From a virus: a stretch of DNA of 24,180 nucleotides. Both the position numbers and the translations under genes were made by a program. Of the stretch, positions 2,746 to 24,174 are shown one piece after another. The stretch's first letter is position 1, and the number at the start of each line of letters is the position of its first letter. Where the stretch lies: the IMG/VR virus record IMGVR_UViG_3300042567_000265, positions 1 through 24,180 of that record. One strand, written 5' to 3'. The notes below the pieces were generated by a model. That model did no database searches. It worked only from the letters and a program-made list of their open reading frames with translations, and was not told the origin of the DNA.

Positions 2746-5496
2746 CTACTTTTTCTTTTTATCATCTGACTTTTTATCAAATCTGTTTTTGTTCTCTCTA
2801 GCTATTTGTAATTGTTTTTCAGCTATATCTTTTTGAGCTTGTATCTTTTGTTGTTCAATACTCATTTTTTGAGAACTTCTTAAATTTTCAGCATTCTGTT
2901 TCTCTCTTTGTAAGTTAGTTTGCTCTTGATATTGTTCAGATTGTCTAATATCTTTCATAGCATCTTGATAGTCAGACATCTCATTTTTGTTAACATCTAC
3001 AGCAGCACCAAATCCAGCAGATCTAATCTCAGCAACAACTACATTATTTTCAAGTTGTCTAGCTTGTTTTTCAGCTTCAGCTTGAATCAGTGCTTGTTGT
3101 TGTTTTTCTTGAGAAGCTAATTGCTCTTGTTGCATTTGTTGTTGAGACTGTTGTTCTTGTTGTTTTTCTTGTTGTTGTTTAGCTTCAGATGCTTTAAGAA
3201 CTGTATTAAGTTCTGCAATAGAATCTGATTGTACAATTTTACCAAGATCATAAATAGAAGCTCCTGTTGTATTATTTTGTAAAGCCATTTGTTTAAGTTG
3301 CTCAAGAACAGCTCTATGGTTTGCAGTAGTTGTACAGAAAATATTCAAGTCTCTCATTAACAAGTCAGTACCATTTATCTGGAAATTAACTTTTTCATCA
3401 GCTCCTGTAATATATGTAAGTCTTGATGAAGGTTTTGTTGAATGATAGAATTGAGCCAAGTCAGTTCTCATCTGATGTACTCTTGGCATTAAATAATCAC
3501 AATGCTGAATAAAGAATATTTCAGTTTGAGCATAAGATGAACTAACAGCTTGTTCTACTCCAGTAGCAGTTTGTTGTGATAATTGTTGTCCCATTCTTTG
3601 TGGGTTAACACCAATTACTTCATATGCTTGTTGTTTAAAGTAGTTTGCAATATTAATCCTAGACATTAATCTCTCTGTCTGAGATAGATCAAGTTTTTGG
3701 AAATGTTGGAAGTTTAATGCATTCTCTGTATTTGTAATAGATGTATCAAGAGGAAGCATTTGGAAATCCTTCATTGCTACATATGCTTTAGCTAAATTAC
3801 CTTTACCCCAATCTTCACCTAAAGAGTGTCTAGGAAGTGTGTTCTGGTCTAACATGATAATTGTACCTAACTCATCTACTAATATATCAGCAATCTGGTT
3901 ATTTACTATGTTATATCCAATCTGGAAAGGTTTCATTAAGTCTAATAATGCAGTTGACTTAGTATTTCTATCTGAGAATACAGATCCTTCAACAGGAAGT
4001 TTACAACCATATAAAGTTGAATCTCCTTTAAATTGAAATCTTAAAGGACCAATATGATTCTTATCAATACCAATATAGATAGGAGAGAATCCTCCAGGAT
4101 TATTCATACCCCAGAATGAAGGTAAATTTGGTCCAACTTTTACACCACCCCAAACTTCATTGATCCATATCCAATCAATGTGATCACCATACAATAAATT
4201 ATCTTTGCTTTTATTTTTAAATAGTCTTGTATCATAAATTGGTTTATTCTCAATTTTATAATCTTCAGTAACTATTTCATTAGTAACCTCACCATTTTCA
4301 GCAACACTTGTAAGATGTCCAACTTTTCTTTGAGACTTCCAATATATTGTAGAAACTCTTAATAAGAAAGCTGTACCTTGATCATGGTAATCTTCACCTT
4401 CCATTAAAATCTCATTAATGATATCACCTTGACCTACAACAGTACCTGCCATAGCTGATGTATATTGTCTGTAAGCTAATGAAGGCATATTAGTATTCCA
4501 TTCATGTGATCTAGTACCATCATAGAATGAACCATCATTTTGCATACCTCCGATAGTATATCCTGCAGATCTAATTGGATAAACAGCTTCTAATGCAGCA
4601 AGCTGCTCTTCAGTCATGATGTAACCATATCTATCAATAACATCTGATGCTGTCATCATATCTGTTTTACCAACCCAGTTAGATTGAGATATGTATCTTG
4701 AGTCTGGAGATTTGTGATAGAATGTAATTGCTGGATTCCAAAGTTCTACTTCATAATCATCTTCCATCATACGGAAATGCCAGAACTCTCTATCTGTAAT
4801 AAGCATATCACGGAAACCTCTTTCTTCTAGTTCATCCATTTTAAATCTTTCAACATCTACTTTATGTTGATGACTTGCCCATTCTTCTACCATTGATCTA
4901 TAATCCTTTTTAAAGAATTGCTCAATCTCTGGTAAAGTTTTAAGATTGTCTGGTGACATTTGTTGTTGTGCTTCTTCTGAATCAGGATCTAATCCTTGTT
5001 CTAATAAAGCTGCAGTAAGTTTAATTTGTGCATCAGAAAGCAAAGTCTCTTCAACCATCTTTCTTTTTTGCTCCATCATCTCATTATATGAGAACTCATC
5101 AGTAGCACGGTAAGTAAGTTTAGTTGATCTTTTAGCAAATTCAGCTACTAGAACATTAATAACATTTGGGATAATAGGGTAAAACTTTAATTCTAGAGCA
5201 GACTGATCTTCTTTAGTAAGTACTTCAACAATATCTCTGTATTCATTATCATCCTCAACTATATAGTCAGACTTATCAATAACACCTTTTGCTAGTTTAT
5301 AATTCTTCATTAATCTTCTAGCATTTCTACGGATTTGTTTTAGCCCTTGCCATTCAATCCAGTCTAGGTTCCAAGCAGCCCATTGCTCATCCTTTTCCTT
5401 TTTAGGAATGAATTGTAATGGTTGTGTGATTGAAGCTATTCTGTTATTATCAGTTTTAGCTCCACTCTTGGCTTGCATTGCATTTATAATTTGCAT
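2746..5496 (-). CDS. Portal protein
   Basis: This 916-residue protein begins 6 nt after the terminase stop and precedes scaffold and capsid, which is the portal position in crAss-like phages. The dodecameric portal forms the DNA entry and exit ring at one capsid vertex and docks both terminase and tail. The first 720 or so residues look like the folded portal. They include a Trp-rich N-terminus (EQWAAWNLDWIEWQGLKQ) and a GVNPQRMGQQ...TGVEQAV stretch resembling the helical stem and wing segments of portals. From about residue 770 the protein becomes a long Gln/Lys/Glu-rich tail with runs of QQQ. This tail is larger than in compact portals and probably forms coiled coil or barrel. The final residues are a lysine run. 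The stop is TAG, which argues against amber reassignment. Confidence 0.85.
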   Translation of the reverse strand: MQIINAMQAKSGAKTDNNRIASITQPLQFIPKKEKDEQWAAWNLDWIEWQGLKQIRRNARRLMKNYKLAKGVIDKSDYIVEDDNEYRDIVEVLTKEDQSALELKFYPIIPNVINVLVAEFAKRSTKLTYRATDEFSYNEMMEQKRKMVEETLLSDAQIKLTAALLEQGLDPDSEEAQQQMSPDNLKTLPEIEQFFKKDYRSMVEEWASHQHKVDVERFKMDELEERGFRDMLITDREFWHFRMMEDDYEVELWNPAITFYHKSPDSRYISQSNWVGKTDMMTASDVIDRYGYIMTEEQLAALEAVYPIRSAGYTIGGMQNDGSFYDGTRSHEWNTNMPSLAYRQYTSAMAGTVVGQGDIINEILMEGEDYHDQGTAFLLRVSTIYWKSQRKVGHLTSVAENGEVTNEIVTEDYKIENKPIYDTRLFKNKSKDNLLYGDHIDWIWINEVWGGVKVGPNLPSFWGMNNPGGFSPIYIGIDKNHIGPLRFQFKGDSTLYGCKLPVEGSVFSDRNTKSTALLDLMKPFQIGYNIVNNQIADILVDELGTIIMLDQNTLPRHSLGEDWGKGNLAKAYVAMKDFQMLPLDTSITNTENALNFQHFQKLDLSQTERLMSRINIANYFKQQAYEVIGVNPQRMGQQLSQQTATGVEQAVSSSYAQTEIFFIQHCDYLMPRVHQMRTDLAQFYHSTKPSSRLTYITGADEKVNFQINGTDLLMRDLNIFCTTTANHRAVLEQLKQMALQNNTTGASIYDLGKIVQSDSIAELNTVLKASEAKQQQEKQQEQQSQQQMQQEQLASQEKQQQALIQAEAEKQARQLENNVVVAEIRSAGFGAAVDVNKNEMSDYQDAMKDIRQSEQYQEQTNLQREKQNAENLRSSQKMSIEQQKIQAQKDIAEKQLQIARENKNRFDKKSDDKKKK

Positions 5497-9330: not shown

Positions 9331-9667
9331 TTTCTATAATTGAATCAGCTAATGTTCTAGATGCTTCATCTTCTGACATAAGCATCTTTTTAATATTACT
9401 CATTTCTTCCTGTGTAAACTTGCCTTCAATACCGAGAATTTTAAGTCTCATTAATTTGATAGTTAAAGCTTGATCATCTAATTGTTTCTGTAATCTCCAT
9501 ATTTCAGTTTCAAAAGAATCAATAGCAGTATTATAATGACCTTTTGAACCTTGTTGTATTTGGCTCCATAAACCCTGACCAGTTTGAATAGTATTATTGG
9601 ATGGACCATGAATGACTTTAGTAGGATCATTAACTACTATTCCTTGTATATTTGATAAACTTGCCAT
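9323..9667 (-). CDS. Small coiled-coil protein, function unknown
   Basis: The longest frame begins at a TTG at 9682, but an ATG at 9667 gives the protein MASLSNIQGIVVND... (114 residues). That start lies 4 nt after the preceding stop, whereas the TTG would create an overlap, so I prefer 9667. Residues 1-50 are Gly/Asn/Gln-rich and probably extended. Residues about 52-80 (TEIWRLQKQLDDQALTIKLM) form a likely coiled coil, followed by a helical acidic tail. I do not recognise a family. The mix of a flexible head and a coiled coil is common in phage structural or assembly proteins, and its neighbours are packaging genes. Confidence 0.7.
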   Translation of the reverse strand: MASLSNIQGIVVNDPTKVIHGPSNNTIQTGQGLWSQIQQGSKGHYNTAIDSFETEIWRLQKQLDDQALTIKLMRLKILGIEGKFTQEEMSNIKKMLMSEDEASRTLADSIIENA

Positions 9668-11620: not shown

Positions 11621-12265
11621 TTATTTTAAAATGTTTGACCAAATAAAACCACCTGCAGATTTTTGTCTTTCTTTCAGACAATCTGTTATTGCAGTTTTAT
11701 TTAAGTTATAGTAATCTATTGCATATTTTGCACAAGCCCATTCTTTAATAAAAATACCATCAAGTGAGTACTGAAACACTTTAAATGCTTTACCATTTTT
11801 ATGCCCTTTACTTTCTAACCAATGACCAGTTTTATTTTTTTTATGAGTTAAAGACATTTTTTCTTTAGTCTCATTAGAAGGTTTTCTACCAATAGCTTTA
11901 AATCTAATTTTTTCTTTAGTTTTTTCACTAACCGGGTGACCCATTAATGATTTTTTTCTTTTAAGATTTATCTCTTTACCAAGATATCCCCCATTTCCAC
12001 CATCTGCAATATTACATAATAGTCCTCCTTGTGTATTCTTAACATACAGTTTAATAAATTCTTTTTCTTTTTCACAAGCTTCTTCCCAAGATAAATCATC
12101 TAATAATATTTCTACTCTATATTCAGTTTTATTTACAATATTTTTCCAATATGTATTTCTGCTAGATTTAAAGTATGCTCTATTATAATCTGATTCACTT
12201 TTTCCAATACCAATGTAAAAAGGTTCATTCTTATCTAATCTGATATGTCTATACAAGTAAGCCAT
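11621..12265 (-). CDS. GIY-YIG homing endonuclease with NUMOD-type DNA-binding domains
   Basis: This 214-residue protein has three parts. The catalytic GIY-YIG domain (about 1-90) shows the first motif as YLYRHI, the YIG at 17-19, a likely catalytic Arg at 29, a Glu in EKEKEFIKLY (65-74) and NIADGG at 85-90. The linker has repeated NUMOD3-like segments (SEKTKEKIRFKAIGRKPS and NETKEKMSLTHK). The C-terminal part (about 161-210, KVFQYSLDG... ending AGGFIWS) is a NUMOD1-like helix-turn-helix. The order matches free-standing homing endonucleases of phages, which nick intron-less or related alleles and spread by repair. Its ATG overlaps the endolysin stop as TAATG, so it is inserted precisely between genes. 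It is probably selfish rather than part of lysis. Confidence 0.9.
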   Translation of the reverse strand: MAYLYRHIRLDKNEPFYIGIGKSESDYNRAYFKSSRNTYWKNIVNKTEYRVEILLDDLSWEEACEKEKEFIKLYVKNTQGGLLCNIADGGNGGYLGKEINLKRKKSLMGHPVSEKTKEKIRFKAIGRKPSNETKEKMSLTHKKNKTGHWLESKGHKNGKAFKVFQYSLDGIFIKEWACAKYAIDYYNLNKTAITDCLKERQKSAGGFIWSNILK

Positions 12266-19901: not shown

Positions 19902-20825
19902 TTATGAATGTTCTGTTATACGTACTCTATTAATTGTTGCTTGTTCAGCAGGTGTTCCTAATAATACAGCAAAAATAATATATAAATCTACAGTAGGATT
20001 AATTGTTACTTCATTTCTAATGTTACTTGTAAATGTAATATCATTTGCATTTTGCTGAAGAAAATTATAACCATATATTTTATTACCAACTTTTTGAAAA
20101 TCTCTTTCATTTCTAAACCATCCTCCATCTGCTGATTGATTAGCACCAGTAGCAATTCTTGTAGCACCTACTAATGAATTAGAAGTATTAACCCAAATTT
20201 GAGATTGAACTACATCTGAACCTGTACGATATACACCCCATGATGTTTGAAGAACACTGTTTGTAGCAAGTGTGTTTGCAGGAACTAAAATACTTCCTGA
20301 AATATATGGTGTTAATGCAATACCTCCTGTTACAACAGATCCTTCTGGAATTGCACCAATAGCTTTAAATCCTGAAATATTAGGTCCGGGTACTCCTTGA
20401 ACTCCTTGTGGTCCTATTGCTCCTTGAGAAGCTAATAATGCCCAATTTGCTGTATCTAAACTTGGATTAGTTGTACCTGATGTTGGATTAATACAAAAGT
20501 AAGAAGCTCCGCCAAAACCTACTGCATCATCTGCAACATAAGAATTACCTGATACCCATGCACCTTGCCATGTTAATCCAGCTGGTCCTACTGGTCCAGG
20601 TAAACCATTTGCGCCTGTAGCACCTGTTAAACCTATTGGTCCTGCAGGTCCTGCTGGTCCTGGACCAAATTGATTTGCAAAATCTTGAACAGTGATTGCT
20701 CCAGTTAAGTAACTATCATCTCTTCTATTGTCTTTAAGACCTACTGGTAAAAGAGTTTTAGATGGATCAACAGTAGTAACTTGTCTACCTCCTTTGATCC
20801 AACTAATAAAATTTAAAATATCCAT
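19902..20825 (-). CDS. Fibre with collagen-like repeats and a carbohydrate-binding-like module
   Basis: This 307-residue protein is modular. The anchor (1-52) begins MDILNFISWIKGGR, the same 14 residues as the neighbouring gene. Collagen-like Gly-X-Y triplets run at 54-83 (GPGPAGPAGPIGLTGATG and on) and again at 135-148. Between them, 84-134 contains WQGAWVSGNSYVADDAVGFG and ASYFCINPTSG, reminiscent of CBM5/12-type chitin or glycan-binding modules of phage fibres. A beta-rich C-terminal domain (about 150-307) ends in strand-like ATINRVRITEHS. Triple-helix repeats suggest a trimeric extended fibre. The C-terminal part probably contacts the host, which is inference. Confidence 0.8.
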   Translation of the reverse strand: MDILNFISWIKGGRQVTTVDPSKTLLPVGLKDNRRDDSYLTGAITVQDFANQFGPGPAGPAGPIGLTGATGANGLPGPVGPAGLTWQGAWVSGNSYVADDAVGFGGASYFCINPTSGTTNPSLDTANWALLASQGAIGPQGVQGVPGPNISGFKAIGAIPEGSVVTGGIALTPYISGSILVPANTLATNSVLQTSWGVYRTGSDVVQSQIWVNTSNSLVGATRIATGANQSADGGWFRNERDFQKVGNKIYGYNFLQQNANDITFTSNIRNEVTINPTVDLYIIFAVLLGTPAEQATINRVRITEHS

Positions 20826-23010: not shown

Positions 23011-23031
23011 ACTTATTTGGTTTTTAGTTTG

Positions 23032-23106
23032 AGGTACAGATAGGATTCGAACCTATGGCTTTACAGTTTTGCAGACTGTTGCTTTAGACCACTCAGCCAC
23101 TGTACC
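23032..23106 (-). tRNA. tRNA-Cys (GCA)
   Basis: The 75-nt cloverleaf on the minus strand has acceptor stem GGTACAG/CTGTACC. The anticodon stem ACAGT/ACTGT surrounds the loop CTGCAAA (anticodon GCA), and the T arm is ATAGG-TTCGAAT-CCTAT. The discriminator base is U, as expected for tRNA-Cys. CCA is not encoded. A consensus promoter lies just upstream. The phage also encodes a 36-Cys protein at 15101-16819, so the tRNA may help its translation, which is inference. Confidence 0.95.
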
Positions 23107-23217: not shown

Positions 23218-23233
23218 TAAATTATTTATGATA

Positions 23234-23279
23234 TAAAAAACCCAGGCAGCAATTCTTGATCAGAGAGACTTACCTGGGT
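23234..23279 (-). terminator. Intrinsic terminator of the lipoprotein/RNA unit
   Basis: On the minus strand ACCCAGG-type sequence at 23279-23273 pairs over 7 bp with CCTGGGT at 23246-23240, followed by a run of T. The loop is long (26 nt). Part of the stem sequence is repeated in the upstream hairpin at 23416-23436, see the findings. Confidence 0.75.
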
Positions 23280-23450
23280 GTGTTAGTGGTTATACATTTC
23301 TGCTTTCCCAATAACGGAGAGACCAAGCAGCAGATCTTACGGGATGCATGCATGGTACTGAGCCTATGTAATGAAATACACAGGTCTTGCAAAAGACCTA
23401 CCCTGGTACGCTCGGCTGGGTGACACCCCAACCCAGAAGCGTGGTAGGTA
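23280..23450 (-). ncRNA. GC-rich structured RNA region downstream of lipoprotein gene
   Basis: There is no supported gene between the lipoprotein stop and the terminator, yet GC is about 50% over 23241-23450, far above the surroundings. On the minus strand a long stacked hairpin follows the stop codon: CCTACC/GGTAGG (23448-23443 with 23402-23397), ACGCT/AGCGT (23442-23438 with 23412-23408) and CTGGGT/ACCCAG (23436-23431 with 23421-23416). Then come AGGTCTT/AAGACCT (23399-23393 with 23388-23382), which competes for three bases with the first stem, and CTGCTT/AAGCAG (23330-23325 with 23305-23300). It may be a processed small RNA, a regulatory 3' UTR, or a switch controlling the terminator. I recognise no known RNA family. 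Confidence 0.65.
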
Positions 23451-23801
23451 TTAATCTATACAAAATAATCTTTGTCTACTATAGCTATAAATATTAAATT
23501 CATTTACAGTGTCTATCCAATATCCCAATGGGAAAGTATCTTTACAGTAGAATGGATAGTCTGCCGTGTTGTCATATATAGGACTTGATACAGTGTCCCA
23601 ATGATATGTATAAACATACCTAGGTCTTGTGTTGTCATACCCATCACCATTCCACCAACCTGGATCACTTTGAACATCAATAGAGTCCTTGTACCTTCTC
23701 TCCCATAGATACATTGCCTTACAAGTACATGGTAATGTGTACTCTTCCTTCTTACATCCAGTTAAGGAAATTGTTAATGCTAATAATAATACTTTTTTCA
23801 T
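23451..23801 (-). CDS. Small lipoprotein, probably surface-exposed
   Basis: This 116-residue protein has a lipoprotein signal peptide (MKKVLLLALTISLTGC) with lipobox LTGC at 13-16. The residues just after the Cys are KKEE, which fit the K-(D/E)2 surface-export signal known from Bacteroidota lipoproteins. The mature part is rich in Tyr, Trp and Asp, with further cysteines (CTC near 25-27, one near 86 and one near the C-terminus) that could pair in disulphides. I recognise no family. Phage lipoproteins such as T5 Llp block receptors against superinfection, so that is a reasonable hypothesis. The gene stands alone between two GC-rich RNAs and has a 14-bp palindrome 9 nt before its ATG. Confidence 0.8.
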   Translation of the reverse strand: MKKVLLLALTISLTGCKKEEYTLPCTCKAMYLWERRYKDSIDVQSDPGWWNGDGYDNTRPRYVYTYHWDTVSSPIYDNTADYPFYCKDTFPLGYWIDTVNEFNIYSYSRQRLFCID

Positions 23802-23809
23802 AATATTTA

Positions 23810-23823
23810 TACCTTTAAAGGTA
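23810..23823. promoter_or_regulatory. 14-bp perfect palindrome before the lipoprotein start
   Basis: TACCTTTAAAGGTA reads the same on both strands and ends 9 nt before the ATG at 23801. It could be an operator or a short hairpin that hides the translation start. There is no proof beyond symmetry and position. Confidence 0.45.
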
Positions 23824-23856
23824 ACTACTTTTCAAAAACACTACATATTAGATGAT

Positions 23857-23958
23857 CTATATCCCCAATATGGTATAAAACAGAGGCTCCCACCTGCCTT
23901 CCTCTGCTATAGACTTATCTCTCCAGTAGTCTACCCGATGCCACGGATGCTTAACCAT
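23857..23958 (-). CDS. Possible 33-residue peptide inside the structured RNA
   Basis: The frame ATG (23958) to TAG (23857) encodes MVKHPWHRVDYWRDKSIAEE and 13 more residues, rich in Trp. A perfect AGGAGG (23973-23968) lies 9 nt before the ATG, an unusual thing in this window where leaders are A-rich. The frame crosses three predicted RNA hairpins. It may be a real small gene, a dual-function RNA, or chance. Confidence 0.3.
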   Translation of the reverse strand: MVKHPWHRVDYWRDKSIAEEGRWEPLFYTILGI

Positions 23959-24085
23959 CCTGCATTCCCTCCTTCACAATGTTAAGTTGTCTTGTGAGCC
24001 AGTTATTTTTACTGTCTTCAGGGAGAACTTGAAATGGACATCCTAACGGTTATATTCCACAGCTTTTTGTCTCCCGTCTTATACC
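23872..24085 (-). ncRNA. 214-nt multi-helix structured RNA candidate
   Basis: A closing stem GGTATAA/TTATACC (24085-24079 with 23878-23872, 7 bp) encloses several local hairpins on the minus strand. They are GGGAGA/TCTCCC (24075-24070 with 24026-24021), CAGT/ACTG (24014-24011 with 24003-24000), TCACAA/TTGTGA (23997-23992 with 23979-23974), GGATG/CATCC (23960-23956 with 23949-23945), TAGACT/AGTCTA (23933-23928 with 23915-23910) and CAGAGG/CCTCTG (23906-23901 with 23886-23881). GC over 23881-24080 is about 46%, well above the surroundings. A promoter ends 2 nt before the closing stem, so the RNA would start at its own base. I recognise no known family. No terminator follows, so the lipoprotein gene may be on the same transcript. 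Confidence 0.65.
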
Positions 24086-24086
24086 A

Positions 24087-24118
24087 CAAATATATATTAT
24101 AATATACATAACACCAAA
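24087..24118 (-). promoter_or_regulatory. Promoter of the 214-nt RNA and lipoprotein unit
   Basis: On the minus strand TTTG (24118-24115), then 20 nt, then TATATTTG (24094-24087), which is one base from the 19-nt Bacteroidota spacing. The predicted start falls at the 5' strand of the closing stem of the RNA. The GTATATTATA sequence seen at other promoter sites also occurs inside the spacer (24107-24098). Confidence 0.75.
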
Positions 24119-24174
24119 TATAACTTACAAAAGCATGCTATACTTTACATATTATACCAAATATACTTTACATA
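24113..24174. repeat. Cluster of promoter-like repeats at the right edge
   Basis: ACCAAATATA occurs at 24113-24122 and 24156-24165 (43 bp apart), each giving TATATTTG on the minus strand. A 13-nt unit TATACTTTACATA occurs at 24139-24151 and again at 24162-24174 (23 bp apart). The cluster may be stacked promoters or protein-binding iterons. The window ends inside it, so its extent is unknown. Confidence 0.6.

Follow-up and report, generated by a model that had tools for sequence, protein, structure and literature searches.

The window analysed here, i.e., the whole stretch of DNA under study, is a virus record of 24,180 bases with a four-RNA locus at its end, on the minus strand (Table 1). On that strand TATATTTG is followed by RNAs A and B, the gene for a lipoprotein, hairpin C, RNA D, and then tRNA-Cys and small genes. 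The first-pass annotation of this DNA had placed two GC-rich non-coding blocks around the lipoprotein gene, and both the coordinates and the strand proved to be correct. The GC contents it had given (about 46% and 50%) agree with the measured fractions of 0.46 for A and B (23879-24078) and 0.491 for C and D (23238-23449); the values elsewhere are 0.321 for the whole window and 0.336 for the lipoprotein gene. Seven of the 1199 segments of 200 nt reach a GC fraction of 0.45, three of them inside the two blocks and four at 20461-20720, within a gene with a collagen-repeat-like translation. Each block is composite: block 1 consists of two separable RNAs, A and B, and block 2 of two separable modules, C and D.

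Table 1. Features of the four-RNA locus and their positions in the window
Feature	Position	Strand	Description and basis
Promoter-like -7 element, TATATTTG	24087-24094	minus	Read from the sequence; 9 nt upstream of RNA A
RNA A, 64 nt	24015-24078	minus	Outer stem GGGAGAC/GUUCUCCC, variable inner stem, conserved loop with ACCGUUAGGAU
RNA B, 125 nt	23879-24003	minus	P1 encloses two hairpins with pairable loops, then two more hairpins
RNA B, hairpin loop 1	23981-23986	minus	CUUAAC; pairs with loop 2
RNA B, hairpin loop 2	23950-23955	minus	GUUAAG; pairs with loop 1
Lipoprotein gene, 116 aa	23451-23801	minus	Lipobox LTGC, export signal CKKEE; ORF translation
Hairpin C	23396-23449	minus	ACCUACC-ACGCU ... 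AGCGU-ACCAG-GGUAGGU; alignment A4
RNA D core	23304-23384	minus	Hairpins D1 and D2 around GCAUCCCGUAAGAUCUGC; alignment A3
RNA D including terminator-like hairpin	23235-23384	minus
Terminator-like hairpin	23235-23278	minus	CCCAGG...CCUGGG (stem 23278-23241), loop CUGAUCA, then U6; read from the sequence
tRNA-Cys(GCA)	23031-23106	minus	ARAGORN and Rfam; downstream member of the same island

The -7 promoter consensus of Bacteroidota is TAnnTTTG, which TATATTTG fits. A second copy of TATATTTG is located at 24115-24122; it precedes B in three related loci (L010, L011, and L022), where A was not seen. The scan for sigma-70-type promoters, a type that does not cover those of Bacteroidota, gave 4 sites versus 5.6 in shuffled sequences. 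The terminator scan missed the hairpin at 23278-23241, and the single terminator-like site it reported was 23401-23380 (0.9 in shuffles). Ends resembling the terminal hairpin of D are present in other loci. Also, a homing-endonuclease-like gene (phrog_314, E 2.5e-21) was found at window positions 11621-12265 on the minus strand.

Conserved structures in the two blocks

Relatives were collected by a protein search (11 loci) and by matching DNA patterns to the viral collection. The earlier proposal that both blocks are structured non-coding RNA is borne out by covariation in A, B, C, and D. Folding energy backs block 2 (z -3.83; -3.57 for hairpin C and -3.57 for RNA D) but does not single out block 1 (z -0.28 for A and B together, -0.89 for B, and -1.47 for A), so that the case for block 1 rests on covariation. 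The structure of RNA A was guided by RNAalifold; in its alignment (A2, 8 sequences) 96.1% of the cells are paired, two-sided changes occur in 6 of 16 pairs, and the covariation score is 0.335 versus 0.140 in shuffles. The corresponding values are 96.7%, 12 of 36 pairs, and 0.328 versus 0.181 for RNA B (A1, 13 sequences); 92.1%, 9 of 20 pairs, and 0.158 versus 0.093 for hairpin C (A4, 20 distinct sequences); and 97.8%, 4 of 15 pairs, and 0.208 versus 0.104 for RNA D (A3, 23 sequences). Alignment A4 omits L011, L014, L025, L026, L105, L115, L116, L120, L122, and L123 as well as the near-identical L001-L004. Two of the 25 segments extracted for A3 (L025 and L116) were left out, and the near-identical L001-L003, L006, L007, and L026 were not extracted.

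For each of the four modules, none of 500 shuffles, which ignore kinship among the sequences, attained the observed covariation score. Structures slid along the alignments scored below the true one in all cases (at most 0.092 for RNA B). Shuffles with at least as many two-sided pairs as observed numbered 76 of 500 for A, 1 for B, 0 for C, and 17 for D; those with at least as many further pair types numbered 227, 436, 172, and 0, respectively.

Some positions were constrained by the searches themselves. In stem 2 of hairpin C, five of the six pairs are set by the search pattern and therefore cannot vary, and the patterns for B fix TGGTTRAG, and hence most of loop 2 in the rows found with them. 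Seven of the 13 rows of B (the window, L004, L005, L008, L009, L010, and L011) came via the lipoprotein and not via the B pattern, and 14 of the 23 rows of D came via the pattern for C, which carries no information on D. The models built from these alignments matched members from outside the seeds, namely B in L104 and D in G007, G011, G025, and G044.

Model R2, made for RNA A, matched 10 of 14 records, one of them weakly (E 0.04), and one of 26 other records. Model R3, made for RNA D, had matches in 36 of 47 records with E values no higher than 0.01, the weakest being that in G046 (E 0.0026); 22 of these records had supplied seed rows. Hairpin C was found as 34 stretches in viral contigs, 28 of which also matched D, with no D match in the remaining six (L108, L109, L113, L117, L118, and L120). 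Model R1, made for RNA B, gave 20 matches across 81 sources. It matched none of the seven viral stretches in which the B pattern occurs by chance and none of the 50 pattern stretches from bacterial genome contigs; the latter were accordingly rejected as relatives of B, and 50 is, by a rough estimate, about the number to be expected by chance.

Six standard pairs can be formed between loops 1 and 2 of RNA B in all 13 sequences. One-sided wobble changes occur in four of them and two-sided changes in none, and random loops of the same size gave six pairs in 0.56% of trials. In L104, a member from outside the seed, both loops are unchanged and the pair closing loop 2 shows a paired change. Judged from this complementarity, a loop-loop contact within RNA B is likely. 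Two differing copies of B were found in G007 (L019 and L024), at 294-416 and 66622-66736, that is, at the two ends of a 66.7-kb contig; the second copy is cut by the contig end, and the two are perhaps neighbours in a circular genome. RNA A and RNA D have the hairpin-loop motif ACCGUUAG(G)AU in common (window positions 24040-24051 and the D core of L103, L107, L112, and others), which is perhaps a shared binding site.

By inspection, up to three extra hairpin blocks lie between C and D in other phages; one of these (CUUUACCUU...UUGAACCCNAAUCAA) was also found after D in L103, and the hairpin modules thus seem to be shuffled. The terminal loop of D contains the self-complementary UGAUCA in a number of loci. 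In L040, L107, L110, L111, L112, L119, L121, and L122 another hairpin takes the place of UGAUCA, which is therefore not essential. An element resembling ATATTTATA is present within 30 nt upstream of C in 9 of 30 loci, as compared with 25 of 6000 positions drawn at random from these loci, and may be a promoter.

The lipoprotein gene and the tRNA-island setting

The mature lipoprotein begins with C-K-K-E-E-Y, and CKKEE or CKKDE is found in all seven aligned lipoproteins, the window's included. In Capnocytophaga, the optimal surface-export signal is C-X-K-(D/E)2-X (PMC5080379). The earlier prediction of a surface lipoprotein is supported, with both the LTGC lipobox and this signal present. The signal is also what the protein has in common with the Bacteroidota surface lipoproteins described there (PMC5080379), while the window protein has no known domain. 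On these motifs it is likely to be a surface protein of a Bacteroidota host. Searches against Pfam and PADLOC assigned it to no family, and tblastn gave no match at E 0.1 among 50,697 phage records. The mean pLDDT of its predicted structure was 47, which makes the structure unusable for fold assignment and a fold search not worthwhile. Cor (phrog_1119) is a small phage lipoprotein of superinfection exclusion. The Cor family matched the lipoprotein with E 0.00059 over residues 1-68, no stretch being significant by itself; the likeness is that of a small phage lipoprotein, and homology across the mature protein was not found. A superinfection-exclusion locus, as suggested in the first-pass annotation, is thus possible but unsupported, this weak match being the sole one.

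In all 12 loci with the lipoprotein (the window and L001-L011), B precedes the gene and D follows it. However, 17 loci hold both B and D, and the lipoprotein is absent from five of these (L014, L025, L026, L034, and L104). Among 47 related records, many of which are fragments, it was found in 11 (5 of 14 and 6 of 33) and D in 36, 25 of which lack the lipoprotein. The idea of one cassette of promoter, RNA, lipoprotein, and second RNA, with RNA regulation of the lipoprotein, was therefore rejected, because the RNAs occur without the gene. The blocks are unlinked to the lipoprotein elsewhere, an outcome that the annotation had itself named as refuting its proposal, and no positive evidence of RNA regulation was obtained. 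The upstream and downstream modules vary as well: L010 and L011 have B with no A seen before it, L005-L008 lack C but keep the lipoprotein, and in L009 two genes, another RNA-like stretch, and tRNA-Met separate the lipoprotein from C. The lipoprotein gene is a separate passenger, and a single group of relatives has it between B and C; from its sequence, the product is probably surface-exposed. A four-gene cassette follows D in L005 (5166-7814) and also in L008 (3675-6293). In L005 it encodes, by Pfam, a family 2 glycosyltransferase, a piece of a DegT/DnrJ aminotransferase, a methyltransferase, and a hexapeptide transferase.

In most loci these RNAs have tRNA genes close by on the same strand. 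A tRNA was found within 2 kb of D in 26 of the 30 loci examined; the exceptions are L005, L008, L011, and L034, and the absence of tRNAs within this distance is in part due to short contigs. The 30 loci omit L002, L003, L006, and L007, which are close to others, L105, and also G007 and G046, which came from whole-record searches. Two of the 30 hold no tRNA, and in 27 of the 28 that do, all tRNAs are on the strand of D. Several of the RNAs begin less than 10 nt past the 3' end of a tRNA. In L037 and L038, whose fetched stretches contain 12 and 15 tRNAs, respectively, RNA A begins 5 nt past the end of tRNA-Trp. RNA B follows tRNA genes in L024 and L104; in the latter it begins at 9332, 2 nt after the tRNA end (9330). 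Hairpin C begins 7-9 nt past a tRNA end in L009, L027, L102, L111, L118, and L121. What lies downstream of D varies between tRNAs and various ORFs, and the neighbours after B differ too; neither B nor D has the constant position before one gene or gene class by which a cis-regulatory element would be recognised.

The same islands contain other unusual elements. A permuted tmRNA (RF04321, 66.8 bits, gathering cut-off 47) was found at 3066-3244 on the minus strand of L111, in the tRNA island that holds C and D. Odd tRNA-like genes are present in L014 (669-793), L009 (4258-4382), L040 (1401-1522, minus strand), and L027 (515-670); their D-arm-like and T-arm sequences are separated by about 75 to 107 nt where the anticodon region would normally be, and Rfam scored those of L040 and L009 below cut-off (40.2 and 22.7 bits, respectively). 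Another element, about 100 nt long, conserved, and structured in appearance (ACCTTAATACCGA...GTGGCATCGGTGAC), is located in L009 (5943-6042), L040 (1058-1161, minus strand), L103 (10-109), and L124 (4080-4179, minus strand). It shares GTGGCATCGG and, in most copies, GTTAAG with RNA B.

Phages that carry the RNAs

The first-listed relative of the window terminase is that of Crassvirales cr130_1 (26.5% identity, E 1e-35), with Flavobacterium phages that are not filed in Crassvirales close behind. The window terminase matches 3 of 34 records, many of them fragments, and one of the three is a near-identical phage. Proteins of the Terminase_6N family were found in 5 of the 34 records tested. The one from the L112 contig shares 57% identity with its counterpart in Flavobacterium phage immuto, where a T4-like gp20 is adjacent, and 72% identity with the one from the L040 contig; both contigs bear D. 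Since the L112-contig terminase has no significant similarity to that of the window, D is found with at least two terminase lineages. By these protein comparisons, D occurs with a Crassvirales-like terminase in the window and with T4-like terminases in the L112 and L040 contigs.

Searches with blastn against the phage collection returned little for the RNAs. The window region gave a single 36-nt match in nine Lak phage records (E 7e-3), which sits at and just past the terminal U run, and the L121 and L118 regions gave none. The L123 region matched no phage record without its tRNA and 253 records with it, the best 20 of the 253 all lying over that tRNA. Model R3, run on four named phage genomes, gave one match (E 0.68), which was taken as chance.

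Interpretation and comparison with known RNAs

RNAs A, B, C, and D are separate modules that occur in varying combinations and have conserved, covarying structures. We consider it probable that both blocks represent free-standing genes for structured RNAs, belonging to a phage tRNA island and transcribed together with the tRNAs. Any one function for the RNAs is much less probable than this reading. Judging from spacing alone, the island RNAs and tRNAs would share precursors, from which tRNA end-processing enzymes (RNase P, RNase Z, and exonucleases) would free the RNAs. The terminal hairpin of D would stop transcription, and the mature RNAs would act in trans. The most likely role appears to lie in taking over or protecting the translation machinery of the infected host, because the RNAs accompany tRNA genes and no particular protein gene regularly follows them; candidate partners are ribosomes, tRNAs, or tRNA-cutting defence enzymes.

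A related alternative is that the RNAs imitate parts of tRNAs and absorb anticodon nucleases, as decoys or suppressors of a tRNA-cutting host defence. The neighbouring tRNA genes and the odd tRNA-like genes in the same islands are consistent with this idea, as is hairpin 1 of RNA B, in which a stem of 4-5 bp carries the seven-nucleotide loop CUUAACA. However, the six pairs that this loop can form with loop 2 of RNA B explain it better, and its reading as an anticodon mimic was dropped for that reason. In addition, no acceptor or T-arm was seen in any of the four RNAs, and neither ARAGORN nor Rfam calls any of them a tRNA, tRNA-Cys being the only one in the window. We regard such decoys as unlikely.

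It is quite unlikely that the RNAs form RNA-only assemblies through loop-loop contacts, in the manner of GOLLD or ROOL. The loop-loop match of B and the self-complementary UGAUCA of D would provide contacts, the phage tRNA-island setting is the one described in PMC12286853, and L037 contains a GOLLD match, but the RNAs of the window are much smaller (64, 125, and about 210 nt) and UGAUCA is replaced in eight loci.

Regulation in cis, with block 1 as the 5' leader of the lipoprotein gene and block 2 as a 3' element or attenuator of one operon, would account for the constant order of B, gene, and D in the 12 lipoprotein loci and for the terminator-like hairpin at the end of D. We hold it to be very unlikely, given the five of 17 loci with B and D and no lipoprotein, the position of B after tRNA genes in L024 and L104, the varying sequences after B and D, and the loss of C in L005-L008 with retention of the lipoprotein. 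Finally, it is extremely improbable that the blocks are non-functional, whether as GC-rich repeats or as coding sequence in decay: the folding of block 1 is not unusually stable and antisense ORFs run over both blocks, with one same-strand ORF over block 2, but every module shows paired changes, slid controls fall below the true structure, and the alignments contain 1- and 2-base gaps that would break a reading frame.

Returning to the reading as free-standing RNA genes, phage tRNA islands are usually interpreted as a supply of codons. Here, such islands are found to hold several RNA elements that covary and match no Rfam 15 family, and D spans phages with unrelated terminases. If the RNAs are expressed, tRNA islands carry an RNA programme beyond tRNAs. 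As a tentative and rather doubtful extension, phages with Crassvirales-like and with T4-like terminases may share and exchange an undescribed modular set of tRNA-island RNAs, in which C-D changes by whole hairpins and B folds by loop-loop contact, and which would be an RNA-based system handling host tRNAs or ribosomes. The alignments and structures enable a search in cultured Bacteroidota phages.

The Rfam scan proposed in the first-pass annotation placed no family above cut-off in the blocks, the only family in the window being tRNA. RNAs A, B, C, and D reach no Rfam 15 cut-off, that of GOLLD (RF02032) included, and ROOL was matched neither in the window nor in the 23 related loci scanned. 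At a relaxed threshold, the window end gave tRNA and Plastid-ycf2, a chance antisense match over that tRNA; weak matches below cut-off in L009 to SNORD20, PreQ1, and CC0196 (the last with E 1, over the terminal hairpin region of D) were likewise taken as chance. No published description of RNAs A to D was recognised among the matches listed.

The small stable RNAs C and D of phage T4, whose function is unknown, are encoded within the phage tRNA cluster. They are likened by setting and description only to the RNAs studied here, which are from contigs resembling Bacteroidota phages. A GOLLD RNA (324 bits) was found at 2962-3373 of L037, in a contig that also carries RNA A and no fewer than 12 tRNA genes. 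GOLLD and ROOL are structured phage RNAs of unknown function that, according to PMC12286853, often lie near tRNA islands, and many GOLLD RNAs exceed 800 nt. The position near phage tRNA genes is common to them and to the RNAs described here (26 of 30 D loci). The present RNAs are smaller, from 54 nt for hairpin C to an estimated 370 nt or so for C-D with inserts, as against more than 800 nt for many GOLLD RNAs (PMC12286853), and several distinct families stand side by side in one island. By Rfam they are not members of GOLLD or ROOL, but these two are the nearest known kind.
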